DNA from: Pontivivens insulae
GTDB taxonomy: Bacteria > Pseudomonadota > Alphaproteobacteria > Rhodobacterales > Rhodobacteraceae
Assembly (NCBI RefSeq): GCF_900302495.1
Contig: NZ_OMKW01000004.1
Location: 1-64,000, forward strand
Reading direction: 5' to 3'
Length of the DNA: 64,000 nucleotides
Shown: positions 382 to 5,965 of the stretch, in pieces
How the letters are laid out: each line of letters begins with the position of its first letter
Numbering within the stretch: position 1 is the first letter of the stretch
Notes under the pieces: model-generated
What the model was told of the DNA's origin: nothing
The model's database searches: none
What the model saw: the letters and a program-made list of their open reading frames with translations, nothing else
Position numbers and translations under genes: made by a program

Positions 382-918
382 TCAGTCGTCGGCGCCACCC
401 GCGCCCAGTGTGCGGGATTGTTCTGTGGCTGGTGCGTAGGTGCGACGTGCAAACAGCTCCAGCTTGGTAAGTGCGGTGTCGTCGCACGTCGCTCTATGGC
501 AGATTGAGGTGTGGGAGCTATTCGTTCCGCAGGGTTCGACTATCATTGTCCCGCGAGCTGGAAGGGTTCCGACGACTGATAGCCCTTCGCCAACGTAGGC
601 GAACCCGTCCTGCCAAGTCATACGAAATCCTGAACTTCCCAATCCAAAGAGCAGGAGCGCTGGCGCTATCACATCAACATGCTCTTCGCGGCCACGCGGC
701 GGTTGATCGCTGAGTCGGCAGGCGAGCGTCAGGCCGCATTGGCCGACGACGGTGCCACGGTTGTCTAAAAGAAAGGTGAGGGTCGCTGCGCCGTCGAGTC
801 CCCATTCATGCAGAAACCGCACGGCCCGCCCGGCCTCGTCTGCCATGCCCCAACTGAAGCCAGCGCCGCGCGCAGCCTTGCGGGCAAGCGATTGTACTTC
901 GTTCAGCGAGAGGGTCAT
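382..918 (-). CDS. DUF3726 family protein, function unknown
   Basis: 178 residues. The N-terminus (SLNEVQSLARKAARGAG, then a Trp-Gly-Met segment) is what I recognise as the DUF3726 family, seen mostly in Rhodobacterales; no biochemical function is known to me. No signal peptide or membrane segment is visible, so it should be cytoplasmic. The ATG at 918 overlaps the stop of the upstream 558-residue gene (ATGA), so the two are translationally coupled, which is why this start is preferred over an in-frame ATG four codons earlier. It is the last gene of a four-gene minus-strand operon with an aldehyde dehydrogenase and an M19-like protein, so a role in the same catabolic route is inferred. Confidence 0.75.
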   Translation of the reverse strand: MTLSLNEVQSLARKAARGAGFSWGMADEAGRAVRFLHEWGLDGAATLTFLLDNRGTVVGQCGLTLACRLSDQPPRGREEHVDVIAPALLLFGLGSSGFRMTWQDGFAYVGEGLSVVGTLPARGTMIVEPCGTNSSHTSICHRATCDDTALTKLELFARRTYAPATEQSRTLGAGGADD

Positions 919-2591
919 TGGATCGGGCACGGATAGACCCAGCGATCACAATTCCAATCGCACAATTCGTCTGGGTAGGGCGCGCCAGCATACATGCAAA
1001 TGCGCAACCATCGGTCAGAGCGCGGGTCAAAACAGGTCGCACCAAAGAAGGACAGTTTCGCGCGCAGCATGTCGATGGGCATCATGTCCGCCGCGATGGT
1101 GTTGTCGCGAATTTCACCATAAGGGGCGAAGGCACAGATTTGCGCACGCCGCACCGTATGGCGATGTTCTGGATGTTTGACCAGGAATTCCGCGATCTCT
1201 GTGCCCGCATCCCAGTGTTCCAAAACCTGATGGGCAAGTGCCGCATCTCGTGCCGGCGCAAGGGGTTGTTCGTAAGGTTCAATCGGTTCCTCAAACCGTT
1301 CGCCGAGACGCGGTTCAAGCTTTTCCTCAGATACATACCAAGCCCGAGCGATCTGCGGGGACTCACTCCAGTCGCGCTCCAACGCCCAGCCAAAGCTTTC
1401 CTGCAACAGTCTGAGCACCTCACCGACTGTCATTCGACCGTTGATGCGAAAGCCTTGCTCGGTCACATCGCTCATACAGTCAGCAAGCCCGTCCACCAGA
1501 TCAGGATAAGGCTCAAGCATCAGTGAGTTCAGCAGCTCCTGCCCCTCAATGCTCAAGGTTTCGGAGGCCCATGCGGCCAGCGCTTTCCACGGTGTCGGCT
1601 GGGTCAATGACGCTTCGGCGAGGTAGTGACGCAGCGCCGCCAGATCATTACGCAATTCCGCGCAGCGCTCTGCCTGTCTGGGATGGGCGCTGTTCCAACG
1701 AGCCACGGTTTCATCAGCCCCGTTTAGACAAGCCTCGAAGATCCCGATCGCTTCAGGCGTTGCTGACGTTTCAGAAAGAACGCGCGCCAGCGCTTCTTCC
1801 CGCGCCATGATCCAATTGTTGAACAGGACCGGATGATTGACGAGAAACGGTGCCATGCCGAGGCCGGTCGAATTGCCGATGCCAAGAAGGCGCGCATTGG
1901 CAGAGGACAGGCAAACGGCGTCATCACCGCCGACCTGCTGCGCCATATGCTCCACCAAATCGCGCACGAATGTACGGATCAGATAGACGGTTAACATCTC
2001 CGCTTGGAACGGGGGCTGAAGCTCCCGCCGATCTGCGAGATACTCCCGATCTGCTGCACCGAATTTACCTGAGCCATAGACGGCTGTTGTGCGCATCAAA
2101 TAGCCGGTTTCTGCCAATTGCGCCGGGTCTGGCTGCAACCCGGCCGCAAGCCGTTCGACCACGTGGGACCACAGCCGGGTAGAGCGATTGGCGCGCGATA
2201 GCGTCAGTTCGCGTTCTGTGATCCGCCCCGCCTCCTGTAGCGGGACATTGGCGCGCAGGCGCGAGATATCATCCTCTGTGGGCGCCCCATCGAATAGCGC
2301 AAAGGTCGTATCCCAGGCCTCTGCAATCACCCGGTCAGAACGTAGCGAGTCGGGCAAATCATGCGCAAATGCCACCAAGGAATAGGTCCGTTCAGGACCA
2401 TGTGCTGAATAGACCGCATAACCCACACCGTTGCGGTCGATCTCAAACCGGGGACGCGAAAAACTCCATCCTTCACGCGCCATCCGGCGGGTGAGCTGGC
2501 GCATGAAGCTGAGCCGGCACTGGTGTAACGCGCCCAGCCGTTCGAGGCGCATGACCTCTTGCGGTGGGCGGCGTTGCACCGGGGCGTTCAT
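915..2591 (-). CDS. Uncharacterised 558-residue protein of a catabolic operon
   Basis: 558 residues, soluble, with no signal peptide. I do not recognise a named domain. Visible features are a basic, Arg-rich N-terminal region, a central block around an LGIGNSTGLGMAPF segment followed by VNHPVLFNNWI, and an acidic helical C-terminal half. The Gly-rich GNSTGLG turn could form a ligand loop, but that is conjecture. The ATG at 2591 overlaps the TGA of the M19-like gene (ATGA), and its own stop overlaps the DUF3726 start, so it sits in the middle of a coupled set. An in-frame extension back to 2810 exists but lies inside the M19 gene and is not used. Function is unknown; the cluster suggests an enzyme or partner in one degradation pathway. 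Confidence 0.8.
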   Translation of the reverse strand: MNAPVQRRPPQEVMRLERLGALHQCRLSFMRQLTRRMAREGWSFSRPRFEIDRNGVGYAVYSAHGPERTYSLVAFAHDLPDSLRSDRVIAEAWDTTFALFDGAPTEDDISRLRANVPLQEAGRITERELTLSRANRSTRLWSHVVERLAAGLQPDPAQLAETGYLMRTTAVYGSGKFGAADREYLADRRELQPPFQAEMLTVYLIRTFVRDLVEHMAQQVGGDDAVCLSSANARLLGIGNSTGLGMAPFLVNHPVLFNNWIMAREEALARVLSETSATPEAIGIFEACLNGADETVARWNSAHPRQAERCAELRNDLAALRHYLAEASLTQPTPWKALAAWASETLSIEGQELLNSLMLEPYPDLVDGLADCMSDVTEQGFRINGRMTVGEVLRLLQESFGWALERDWSESPQIARAWYVSEEKLEPRLGERFEEPIEPYEQPLAPARDAALAHQVLEHWDAGTEIAEFLVKHPEHRHTVRRAQICAFAPYGEIRDNTIAADMMPIDMLRAKLSFFGATCFDPRSDRWLRICMYAGAPYPDELCDWNCDRWVYPCPIQ

Positions 2592-3562
2592 GATCGCGCC
2601 CCGAAATTCTCTGCGAAGAAGCGGTACCAGTTGCCGCCCATCACACCCGCAACTTGCTCGGCGCTGAGGCCTGCATTGCCTAATCCGCGTTCGATATTGA
2701 TGAAGTCGCGATTGTCCTGAAACCAGGTCGGCATGGGCGGGAAGCCCGGCGCGCTGGCCGATCCCTCTCCATAGTCGATTTCCTTGCTCCAACGGCCCAC
2801 GCGCATCCACTCCACCACGCTGTCAGGTTGATCCTGGCACAGATCGGACCCAATCCCGATATGCTCGAAACCGTAACGCGCGCCTGTCTCTGCAATCATG
2901 TGGCAAAAGCTCTCAAGCGTGCAGTCGCTCTTATCCTTTAGGTGGTGGGGGTAGAGCGAAAATCCCAGCATACCGCCGCGCCGGGTGACAGCCTCGATCA
3001 CCTCATGCGGTTTGTTGCGCAATGCAGGCTGCCAGTCATGGGGGTTCGCGTGCGTGATGGCGATGGGCCGCTCTGACAGTTCAGCCGCCTCGATGGTAGA
3101 GCGGTCGCCGGAATGGCTCATGTCGATCACCAGGCCAACGCGGTTCATCTCCTTTATCACCTGTCGTCCCATCCGGGTGATGCCGCTATCTTCCTCTTCA
3201 TAGCAGCCCGTCGCCAGTAGCGATTGATTGTTATAGGTCAACTGCATGAAGCGCGCGCCGAGCGTGTGCACAATCTCCACCAGGCCAATATCGTCTTCGA
3301 TGGGGGAGGGGTTCTGAAACCCAAAGAATATCGCTGTTCGCCCGCTGTCGCGCGCGCGATCAATATCCGCTGCATTCAGCCCCTTCATGATCAGGTCCGG
3401 ATACTGCTCTAACCACCGATTCCAGCGCTCGAAATTGAGCACCGTCTCCCGGAAGTTCTCGTGATAGGCGATGGTGACGTGCACGGCGTCCACACCACCC
3501 TCCCGCATCTGGCGAAAGATATTCTCTGACCAGTTGGCATATTGCAGCCCGTCAATGCGCAT
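2588..3562 (-). CDS. M19 (renal dipeptidase-like) family protein with altered metal site
   Basis: 324 residues, cytoplasmic, matching the M19 membrane-dipeptidase/amidohydrolase fold in length. Conserved second-metal residues are visible: His150 (DMSH), His171 (ITHANPHDW), the Arg182-Asn183 pair and Asp240 (GIGSD). The canonical N-terminal DGHND metal motif instead reads DGLQY (residues 4-8), and the bridging Glu, usually in a G-x-E-G segment, appears as Gln83 (GFQN). So the first zinc site seems lost, and the reaction may not be dipeptide hydrolysis. The ATG at 3562 overlaps the aldehyde dehydrogenase stop by one base; a GTG one codon earlier is also possible. It is the second gene of the operon. 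Confidence 0.8.
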   Translation of the reverse strand: MRIDGLQYANWSENIFRQMREGGVDAVHVTIAYHENFRETVLNFERWNRWLEQYPDLIMKGLNAADIDRARDSGRTAIFFGFQNPSPIEDDIGLVEIVHTLGARFMQLTYNNQSLLATGCYEEEDSGITRMGRQVIKEMNRVGLVIDMSHSGDRSTIEAAELSERPIAITHANPHDWQPALRNKPHEVIEAVTRRGGMLGFSLYPHHLKDKSDCTLESFCHMIAETGARYGFEHIGIGSDLCQDQPDSVVEWMRVGRWSKEIDYGEGSASAPGFPPMPTWFQDNRDFINIERGLGNAGLSAEQVAGVMGGNWYRFFAENFGARS

Positions 3563-5013
3563 CACTCTGGCTCGCCTGCAGCGATATAGGCTGTCTTTAC
3601 GGTCGTATAGAATTCCGCCGCGGCCTTGCCCTGTTCACGTGGGCCATAGCTACTTTGCCCTCGGCCTCCGAACGGCACGTGATAATCGGTTCCAGCCGTC
3701 GGCAGGTTCACCGTGACTACGCCTGTGCGGGCGTTGCGGCGGAAATGTGTCGCGCGGGCGAGGCTTTTCGTGACGATCCCCGATGTCAGGCCGAACCGTG
3801 TATCATTGACTGTATCAACAGCTTCTTCATAAGAGCCGACTTTGATCACGGAAGTCAGGGGCGCAAACATCTCTTCCCGATTGATAACCATTTGATTTGT
3901 CGTGTTCAGGAAGATGCCAGGTGTCATGTAATACCCTTCGGTAGAGCGCTCGACACGAACACCGCCAGTCGCCAGTTCGGCGCCTTCAGCGACACCACGC
4001 TTGACCCAGTCAAGGTTTTCGTTCAATTGCGCTTCGCTGACGACGGGGCCGATCTGTGTGCCGGGCTCCAGCGCATGCCCCACGATCATCTTTTCTGCGC
4101 CTGCGACGAGCTTTTCTACAAAAGCATCGTGCACCGCCTCGTGCACGATCAGGCGTGAGGAAGCTGTGCATTTCTGGCCTGTTCCCCCAAAAGCGCCTGC
4201 CAAAGACAGGCTAACGCCAAGGTCCAGATCGCCGTCATCCATGATGACGAATGCATTCTTCGAGCCCATCTCCATCTGTACCTTGGTCAGATTTGCAATG
4301 GCGCTCGCCGCAATCCCTTTTCCGACCGGGACCGAACCGGTGAAGCTAACCGCGTCGATCATCGGGCTTTCGACCAGGCGTTGCCCGATGGTGCTCCCGG
4401 CGCCCATGACGAGGCTGAAGAGCCCGGCAGGAATGTCTTGCTTCGCGATAATCTCTGTCAGTGCCACGGCAGAGGCAGGCGTTACATTGGCTGGCTTCCA
4501 GACAACCGCGTTGCCATAGCAAAGTGCGGGCGCAATTTTCCACGAGGCCGTCGCGGTCGGGAAATTCCAAGGGGAAATGACAGCCACCGTCCCGACCGGC
4601 TCGCGCCGCACATCGATCTCCACACCTGGTCGGACGGAATCGGCATTTTCACCCAGTTGCCGCAGACACTCTGCCGCGTAATAGGTGAAGAACTGACCTG
4701 CGCGATAAACCTCACCCTTCCCTTCGGCCAACGGCTTACCCTCTTCACGAGACAGGAGCGTGCCCAGCTCTTCCGCGCGGGCCATCATTTCGCGTCCAAT
4801 GGCGTCCAGCACGGCTTGCTTTCGCTCCATGCCGTAGGCGGCCCACTCGGCTTGTGCAACCTTGGCGCACTCCAACGCGCAGTCCAACTGATCGCGCGAG
4901 GCTTGGGCGAAATGTCCGATCAAATCGCTGAGGTCGGAGGGGCTCCGGTTCTCGACTGTGCTTTCCCCTGAAACCCACGCGCCCGCAATGTAGTTTTGCT
5001 TCGTCTCAGTCAT
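3562..5013 (-). CDS. NAD(P)-dependent aldehyde dehydrogenase
   Basis: 483 residues, the usual ALDH superfamily length. Catalytic residues can be read: Asn150 (SPWNF), Glu248 (EMGSKN), nucleophile Cys282 (GQKCTASSR), with the FTGSVPVG nucleotide-binding turn near 225-231. It should oxidise an aldehyde to its acid; overall it resembles 2-oxoglutarate-semialdehyde or succinate-semialdehyde dehydrogenases, but the substrate cannot be fixed by reading. The ATG at 5013 has an AAGGA Shine-Dalgarno sequence about 8 bases upstream; a longer in-frame start at 5061 would run into the divergent promoter and is rejected. It is the first gene of the minus-strand operon and lies back to back with a LysR regulator, probably its activator. 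Confidence 0.9.
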   Translation of the reverse strand: MTETKQNYIAGAWVSGESTVENRSPSDLSDLIGHFAQASRDQLDCALECAKVAQAEWAAYGMERKQAVLDAIGREMMARAEELGTLLSREEGKPLAEGKGEVYRAGQFFTYYAAECLRQLGENADSVRPGVEIDVRREPVGTVAVISPWNFPTATASWKIAPALCYGNAVVWKPANVTPASAVALTEIIAKQDIPAGLFSLVMGAGSTIGQRLVESPMIDAVSFTGSVPVGKGIAASAIANLTKVQMEMGSKNAFVIMDDGDLDLGVSLSLAGAFGGTGQKCTASSRLIVHEAVHDAFVEKLVAGAEKMIVGHALEPGTQIGPVVSEAQLNENLDWVKRGVAEGAELATGGVRVERSTEGYYMTPGIFLNTTNQMVINREEMFAPLTSVIKVGSYEEAVDTVNDTRFGLTSGIVTKSLARATHFRRNARTGVVTVNLPTAGTDYHVPFGGRGQSSYGPREQGKAAAEFYTTVKTAYIAAGEPE

Positions 5014-5063
5014 GTTCGATCCTTGTTTCGCTGCGAGCAGGATGGACGGGGATGTAAACATCG

Positions 5064-5096
5064 GTCAAACTCAAATTCCGCAAGTCAAATTCGGAA
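5064..5096. promoter_or_regulatory. Putative LysR operator in the divergent promoter
   Basis: Between the aldehyde dehydrogenase and the LysR gene lies a dyad TTCCG-N11-CGGAA (5076-5080 and 5092-5096), with a direct repeat TCAAATTC at 5071-5078 and 5085-5092. Spacing and symmetry fit the dyad type bound by LysR-family regulators. It lies 12-32 bases upstream of the LysR start, a position suited to autoregulation. This is inferred from symmetry only. Confidence 0.45.
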
Positions 5097-5107
5097 AATC
5101 CGAAGCC

Positions 5108-5965
5108 ATGACAATCAAGATCGATATGCTGCGGTGTTTCAGCGCCGTCGCTGAGGCGGGCCATCTTTCCGATGCAGCCGCCCGGCTTGGCCGCAGTCCG
5201 TCCGCCGTTTCCGTCATGGTGAAGCAGCTAGAGGAGCATCTGGGCGCGCCCCTCTTTGAAAGTGATCGTAAGAGCCGCTTGACCCCGCTTGGTGCAGAGG
5301 TGTTCGAGTTGGCTCGCGCGCAACTTGCGCAATTTGACGAAGCGGTAAACGCAATGGAGCGGTCTGCCCGCGCCCCCGGCGGCATTGTCCGCATCGCCGC
5401 GGTCCCCTCAGCCGCTGGGGCCTTGTTCGACGAGGTTCTCACCTATCTGCAAAGTCACTATCCGCAAGTACAGGTCGAATTGCGGGACGCAGACAGTCAA
5501 GCCGTGCTGGAGGCACTGGTGCGTGGTGTCGTCGATATCGGCGTGGCGTCCGGACAGCCCACGCTGAACCAGATTCATCAGGAGCCGCTTTTTCAGGACA
5601 AGTTCGGTATGGTCGCCCATGTGGACCACCCGCTTATGGTGAGAGCAGAACCGCTCGATCTGCGCGATCTTGCGAATGCGCCATGTCTTCACAATGACTT
5701 AGCGCGGCAACACGGCATTGATCCCGGCGCGCGCAGCGGGGCGACAGTTCACAACACCCTGTCTCTGATCGCTTTGCTGCGGACAGGGAAGTGGGTGACA
5801 GTATTGCCGGAGTCTGTGGTGCGCTTGGCGCCGGGCGTGCTGGGATTTCGCCCCGTGACCGGTCTTTCTCAGCAACGCGAGGTGTCACTGTTTCTCAATC
5901 AGCGGGCGCCTCTGCCCGATGTGGTTGCGGATCTGGCAAACCGCATTCGCCAGATCCATTTGTAA
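5108..5965 (+). CDS. LysR-family transcriptional regulator
   Basis: 285 residues. The N-terminal winged helix (residues 1-65, MLRCFSAVAEAGHLSDAAARLG then PSAVSVMVKQLEEHLGAPLF) is typical LysR, followed by the periplasmic-binding-protein-like effector domain (about 90-280). The start is set at ATG 5108, where the LysR homology begins; the in-frame extension back to 5012 covers the intergenic operator and the opposite gene's start. It is transcribed divergently from the aldehyde dehydrogenase operon and most likely controls it in response to a pathway compound. It ends 10 bases from the end of lpd, which converges on it. Confidence 0.9.
   Translation: MTIKIDMLRCFSAVAEAGHLSDAAARLGRSPSAVSVMVKQLEEHLGAPLFESDRKSRLTPLGAEVFELARAQLAQFDEAVNAMERSARAPGGIVRIAAVPSAAGALFDEVLTYLQSHYPQVQVELRDADSQAVLEALVRGVVDIGVASGQPTLNQIHQEPLFQDKFGMVAHVDHPLMVRAEPLDLRDLANAPCLHNDLARQHGIDPGARSGATVHNTLSLIALLRTGKWVTVLPESVVRLAPGVLGFRPVTGLSQQREVSLFLNQRAPLPDVVADLANRIRQIHL

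Follow-up and report, generated by a model that had tools for sequence, protein, structure and literature searches.

An M19-fold protein that has lost the first metal site in a putative operon for N-methylated carboxylates

What does a protein of the M19 fold do when the residues that should hold its first metal have been replaced? The question is raised by a gene at positions 2588 to 3562 of the window, the whole stretch of 64,000 nucleotides from Pontivivens insulae that was analysed. In renal dipeptidase the metal ligands are an HxD motif, a bridging Glu and two His. A sequence-only reading of the locus had proposed that in this protein the DGHND-type metal motif is replaced by DGLQY at residues 4-8 and the bridging Glu by Gln83, whereas His150, His171, Arg182 and Asp240 of the second site are retained; that the protein would bind at most one metal; and that it may catalyse another reaction, possibly on the substrate of its operon. 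Here we ask how far these proposals hold, which proteins accompany the M19 variant, as we call it below, and which reaction it might catalyse.

Loss of the first metal site

The gene and the codons of the residues in question are as follows:

2588 to 3562, minus strand: M19-fold protein of 324 aa without the first metal site (the M19 variant); ATG at 3562-3560, TGA at 2590-2588
3545 to 3550, minus strand: codons of Leu6 and Gln7 within DGLQY (residues 4-8, positions 3539-3553); DxHxD in classical M19 proteins
3314 to 3316, minus strand: codon of Gln83, at the position of the bridging Glu; Gln in 87 of 87 aligned rows, Glu in all 18 classical rows
3233 to 3235, minus strand: codon of Tyr110, at the position of a His of GliJ (LTHN) in the alignment with that protein; Tyr in 87 of 87 rows
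3197 to 3199, minus strand: codon of Glu122, which might replace a lost ligand or act as a base; invariant in all 87 rows

The reading frame is intact, conserved and matched by the Pfam family Peptidase_M19 (PF01244; 238 bits, E 1.7e-70, cut-off 26), which rules out a chance open reading frame or a pseudogene; no NCBIfam model matched at 0.001. The replacement of the metal motif by DGLQY is present in the sequence and holds in the alignments, and the exchange of the bridging Glu for Gln83 is seen both in the sequence and in a profile alignment to GliJ. In the latter, GFQN of the M19 variant stands opposite GIEG, LTYN opposite LTHN, DMSH opposite DLSH, ITHAN opposite YSHSS, RN opposite RN, and GIGSDL opposite GIGSDF. 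This alignment with an M19 enzyme of solved structure agrees with the residue mapping of the sequence-only reading, and the four second-site residues that it had named are indeed found at their positions. It also reveals a further change that had escaped that reading, namely Tyr110 in place of the His of GliJ. The two other M19 genes in the same genome are classical, with DGHND or DWHAD and the Glu.

Orthologues of the M19 variant scoring at least 363 bits occur in 71 of the 149 genomes of the same family. Conservation was counted over an alignment of 87 rows; most of these come from the 80 named genome loci, the full set kept by the search. Like Gln83, Tyr110 and Glu122, His171, Arg182 and Asp240 are invariant in all 87 rows, and His150 is retained in 86. 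The one exception for His150 is an Asp in the copy from Shinella zoogloeoides (L081:7961-8956), whose operon is otherwise conserved. The first metal site has almost certainly been lost from the M19 variant. The further proposal that the protein binds at most one metal and catalyses another reaction appears reasonable, and it is in line with how strictly the replacement residues are conserved.

Fold and subfamily

In the predicted model of the M19 variant (49 sequences, pLDDT 91.9, pTM 0.91) the barrel is intact. The model aligns with the structure 2i5g at a Z of 47.1 (rmsd 1.6, 315 aligned), with human renal dipeptidase (1itq) at a Z of 37.0 (rmsd 1.8, 294 aligned) and with GliJ at a Z of about 38. 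The M19 variant shares its fold (Z 36.6 to 38) and the second-site His, Arg and Asp with the binuclear M19 dipeptidases (1itq, GliJ 5lwz and Sco3058 3id7), but has neither their HxD motif nor their bridging Glu, and carries Tyr for the His of GliJ. The NagA-type amidohydrolases of E. coli are mononuclear enzymes that have lost the first-site HxH, hold their metal at the second site and hydrolyse N-acyl groups. They belong to a different family of the superfamily and serve here only as a comparison for how the M19 variant might work; moreover, they retain a Glu ligand, whereas the M19 variant has Gln.

The structure 2i5g, solved in 2006 from Pseudomonas aeruginosa and called only 'amidohydrolase', belongs to the same subfamily as the M19 variant (32-33% identity over the full length). 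It likewise has DGLxx, GFQN, CYN, TGCYE, DLSH, SHC, RN and GIGTD, although it falls into a separate subclade of the M19 tree. We take 2i5g to be the product of the P. aeruginosa dipeptidase gene that is encoded before dgcAB. A dipeptidase gene precedes dgcAB in both Vibrio natriegens and P. aeruginosa, according to PMC12093977.

The change is not confined to this one protein. In the midpoint-rooted tree of 40 M19 proteins, 22 proteins, including 2i5g, make up one half (node support 0.762). DxHxD is found in none of these 22, Tyr occupies position 110 in all of them, and position 83 is Gln in 20 and Glu in two. The remaining 18 rows are classical, with Glu at position 83 in every case and DxHxD in 16; the two rows without DxHxD (L187 and L189) may have lost their N-terminus, the open reading frames having been cut at the first Met. 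At position 110 the classical rows are split between His (8) and Trp (10), so a His at this position is not a strict mark of the family. The loss of the first metal site, which is well supported at the sequence level, is common to the whole clade. Further M19 subclades without DxHxD are represented by L045, L047, L048, L190, L198 and L202, and of these L048 and L202 retain Glu at position 83.

The M19 variant is a protein of known fold from a known, uncharacterised subfamily. In a search of the open-licence literature we found no paper that assigns a function to the clade or to the operon, and none on DUF3726. The members whose records we examined are annotated as 'dipeptidase' or 'membrane dipeptidase', despite the missing two-metal site.

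The operon and the partner proteins

The neighbours of the M19 variant in the window are as follows:

382 to 918, minus strand: DUF3726 protein (PF12525, 60 bits, cut-off 22.1); ATG at 918-916, in a 4-base overlap with the H558 stop; alternative GTG at 930
915 to 2591, minus strand: H558, an unannotated protein of 558 aa; ATG at 2591-2589, in a 4-base overlap with the stop of the M19 variant
3562 to 5061, minus strand: aldehyde dehydrogenase (PF00171, 494 bits); start at 5061 or, more likely, at 5013
5012 to 5965, plus strand: divergent LysR regulator (PF00126, PF03466); a start at 5108 agrees better with the domain than one at 5012

The stop TGA of the aldehyde dehydrogenase (3564-3562) has one base in common with the ATG of the M19 variant. 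Its best NCBIfam model is 2,5-dioxovalerate dehydrogenase, at 469 bits and below the cut-off of 750. Because the window begins at the end of the contig, downstream genes of the operon may be missing here.

H558 gave no Pfam match at 0.001 and no NCBIfam match. It is present in 70 of the 149 family genomes, and its distribution follows that of the M19 variant closely: both occur in 69 genomes, the M19 variant alone in two (G002 and G137), H558 alone in one (G142, at a contig end) and neither in 77 (Fisher p 5e-39, not corrected for kinship). This near-perfect co-occurrence, together with the conservation of the operons, supports the earlier suggestion that the M19 variant may act on the substrate of its operon. 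The predicted model of H558 has a mean pLDDT of 88.7. As a whole chain it found no PDB match at E 0.001 with Foldseek (best E 0.32), and no convincing one with VIA-align (best Z 4.4 among 625 aligned chains); this does not imply a new fold, because whole chains and not domains were used in the structure search. The invariant residues of H558 include many Arg, Glu, Asp and Trp, and almost no His or Cys. H558 also occurs in the archaeon Natrinema versiforme, where it is 32.8% identical and adjoins a BCCT transporter.

The proteins at the DUF3726 position match the N-terminal part of Ldh_2 in Pfam in Natrinema (4.8e-9), Variovorax (0.0054) and S. meliloti (0.025), all below the curated cut-off, and direct profile comparison with Ldh_2 is weak (probability 6.5 and 15.6). 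The small partners in the distant operons (L079:9665-10615, L082:10683-11390 and L078:9674-10399) match the DUF3726 set as well (E 7.5e-7). Because the distant partners match both, Ldh_2 weakly, DUF3726 may be a cut-down relative of Ldh_2, which we take as a hint.

Related operons are found in other genomes. A plasmid of Phaeobacter carries LysR, the aldehyde dehydrogenase, the M19 variant, a BCCT transporter, H558 and DUF3726; the operons of Ruegeria TM1040 and Aliiroseovarius have the same set plus Ldh_2, and in the operon of Aminobacter a glycine betaine ABC transporter is present. A second copy of the operon, without the BCCT transporter, lies on the same plasmid in Phaeobacter inhibens DSM 17395 (L076), adjoining DMSP demethylation genes. 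Among the 80 named loci, H558 was detected at 66, DUF3726 at 45, the aldehyde dehydrogenase (at least 60%) at 37, LysR at 33, Ldh_2 at 22, and a BCCT or betaine ABC transporter at 22. Several of the 14 loci without detected H558 end early, and at 31 of the 66 loci with H558 no aldehyde dehydrogenase reached 60%. For BCCT the window's own genome has a match of 35% only. No ring-opening oxygenase was recognised in the operon.

These neighbours bear on whether the M19 variant could be a true dipeptidase or amidase after all, with other residues (e.g., Glu122) rebuilding a binuclear site that acts on dipeptides or on a betaine conjugate resembling a peptide. The invariance of Glu122 in all 87 rows and the retained overall fold would be compatible with such an enzyme. 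However, the clade has lost the whole set of classical first-site ligands along with the bridging Glu, and the operons have betaine-type transporters and oxidoreductases, with no peptide transporter seen in the operon regions of Phaeobacter, Ruegeria TM1040, Aliiroseovarius and Aminobacter. We consider a rebuilt binuclear site quite improbable, and an ordinary dipeptidase is not supported by the sequences.

The close association with H558 could also mean that the M19 variant is not a hydrolase but a metal-free subunit or scaffold of an H558-DUF3726 complex that carries out ring chemistry. The near-perfect pairing and the 4-base gene overlaps fit this explanation, as does the finding of a trio of H558, small partner and M19 variant in S. 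meliloti and Variovorax. However, a mere scaffold would not need the second-site residues, and these are retained in 86 (His150) or all (His171, Arg182 and Asp240) of the 87 rows; furthermore, several relatives in the clade have no annotated H558-like neighbour in the region shown. A purely structural role is unlikely on this evidence, and a hydrolase is the preferred reading of the M19 variant. For M19 genes without H558, a comparison of the neighbours gave no common partner.

Substrate and a possible deformylase step

A gene set annotated as sarcosine oxidase adjoins the operon in Phaeobacter, Ruegeria TM1040 and Aliiroseovarius. Between the operon-side set of Phaeobacter and the set of Paracoccus alcaliphilus, the beta subunits share 80% and the alpha subunits 67% identity. 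The copy in P. alcaliphilus has a type III glutamine synthetase and glutamate synthase-like genes as neighbours, which is how the N-methylglutamate pathway (mgsABC, gmaS, mgdABCD) is laid out. For the glyA/purU-linked sarcosine oxidase of Agrobacterium, the alpha subunit is about 45% identical. The subunit trees split the mgs-gmaS-type copies from the glyA/purU-linked sarcosine oxidase with a support of 1.000, and the operon-side copies fall into the Mgd clade (alpha subunits of L074, L077, L085, L092, L128 and L141; beta subunits of L074, L077 and L141). For the six loci of the alpha tree, the subunit trees rule out a true sarcosine oxidase beside the operon. The complex at L163 lies outside the Mgd clade and was used as root.

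Within the fetched flank, an Mgd-like beta subunit (at least 60%) was found at 6 of the 80 named loci, two of which (L098 and L106) are without H558. In the window's own genome, an Mgd-like pair of beta and alpha subunits lies on the same contig, about 3 kb past the end of the window (C9:66868-71317), and no MgsC was found at E 1e-150. The cut-off for MgdA was placed at 700 bits in view of the scores, which showed no clear gap; the own genome, at 707.7, is the last above it. Two matches of about 507 bits were left out of the MgsC set. On this basis H558 is present in 14 of the 17 genomes that have Mgd but not MgsC, against 30 of the 90 that have neither (p 0.00026). Counted by Mgd regardless of MgsC, it is present in 30 of the 46 genomes with Mgd and in 40 of the 103 without (p 0.004). 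At the same cut-off, 40 of the 70 H558 genomes are without Mgd, and 30 of these are without both Mgd and MgsC. The association of the two is thus a statistical enrichment with many exceptions.

The substrate of the operon is probably an N-methylated or betaine-like compound, and there is a somewhat better than even chance that this compound is homarine (N-methylpicolinate). Ferrer-Gonzalez et al. (2026, Nat Microbiol 11:1531) reportedly describe a homarine catabolic operon with the genes homABCDER, and their paper may already cover the operon discussed here; the five enzyme genes plus regulator of the fullest copies, the transporter uncounted, and the Mgd link would fit. The operon would be a catabolic one, consisting of LysR, the aldehyde dehydrogenase, the M19 variant, H558 and DUF3726, and elsewhere also of Ldh_2 and of a transporter of the BCCT or betaine ABC type.

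According to PMC13390433, Mgd is involved in the catabolism of homarine, and the end product of the pathway proposed here would be N-methylglutamate, which would pass to the Mgd demethylase. Judged from the chemistry, the conversion of homarine to N-methylglutamate would require the loss of ring carbon 6. Opening of the ring between carbons 5 and 6 would yield N-formyl-N-methyl-glutamate semialdehyde, the aldehyde dehydrogenase would oxidise the semialdehyde to the acid, and the M19 variant would cleave the N-formyl amide to give formate and N-methylglutamate. The step is a proposal; the two enzymes that it calls for are of just the kinds present in the operon. That the M19 variant is the deformylase is a tentative assignment, and a doubtful one. 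The protein would work with the second site only, using His150, His171 and perhaps Gln83 or Glu122, with Asp240 as the base and Arg182 for the carboxylate, and would need one metal or none, because only the second site would be left in use. The joint reading, in which a one-metal-or-none amidohydrolase, perhaps a deformylase, works in an operon for an N-methylated carboxylate, most likely homarine, falls a little short of an even chance.

The BCCT and glycine betaine ABC transporters are unspecific, and the operon might instead degrade another N-methylated or betaine-like compound (e.g., trigonelline, or a carnitine-like or proline-betaine-like compound), with the M19 variant acting on an intermediate. 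The position of the S. meliloti trio beside an aminotransferase and a succinate-semialdehyde dehydrogenase would suit another N-methylpyridinium carboxylate. However, the Mgd clade adjoining the operon speaks for N-methylglutamate, and among such compounds we found an Mgd link in print for homarine only (PMC13390433). Another substrate for the operon in the window is rather unlikely, and homarine is kept as the preferred one. The core genes may nevertheless serve more than one substrate, because the versions in S. meliloti, Variovorax and Natrinema have other neighbours. On pSymB of S. meliloti (L078) the genes are IclR, the H558 relative, the partner, the M19 variant, an ABC transporter, the aminotransferase and the succinate-semialdehyde dehydrogenase, perhaps a pathway for a related N-methyl compound.

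The clade without the first metal site might represent its own class of one-metal or metal-free hydrolases for N-formyl or N-acyl intermediates of N-methylated amino compounds, coupled in this operon to H558 and DUF3726 as a pair that opens the pyridinium ring without a recognised oxygenase. This extension is speculative, and we think it fairly unlikely to hold in full. If the overall reading holds, a role open to testing, in the marine turnover of N-methylated compounds, could be given to a misnamed and widespread enzyme group, which would also provide an example of an amidohydrolase that manages with one metal. The reading also draws attention to H558 and DUF3726 as uncharacterised enzymes that accompany the M19 variant.

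Amine oxidation recurs near members of the clade in a small, hand-picked set. The clade member of Azospirillum TSH58 follows a sarcosine oxidase-like gene set, and those of Palleronia, Agrobacterium and Azospirillum brasilense adjoin FAD oxidoreductases, which would fit a hydrolase that acts on the products of amine oxidation.
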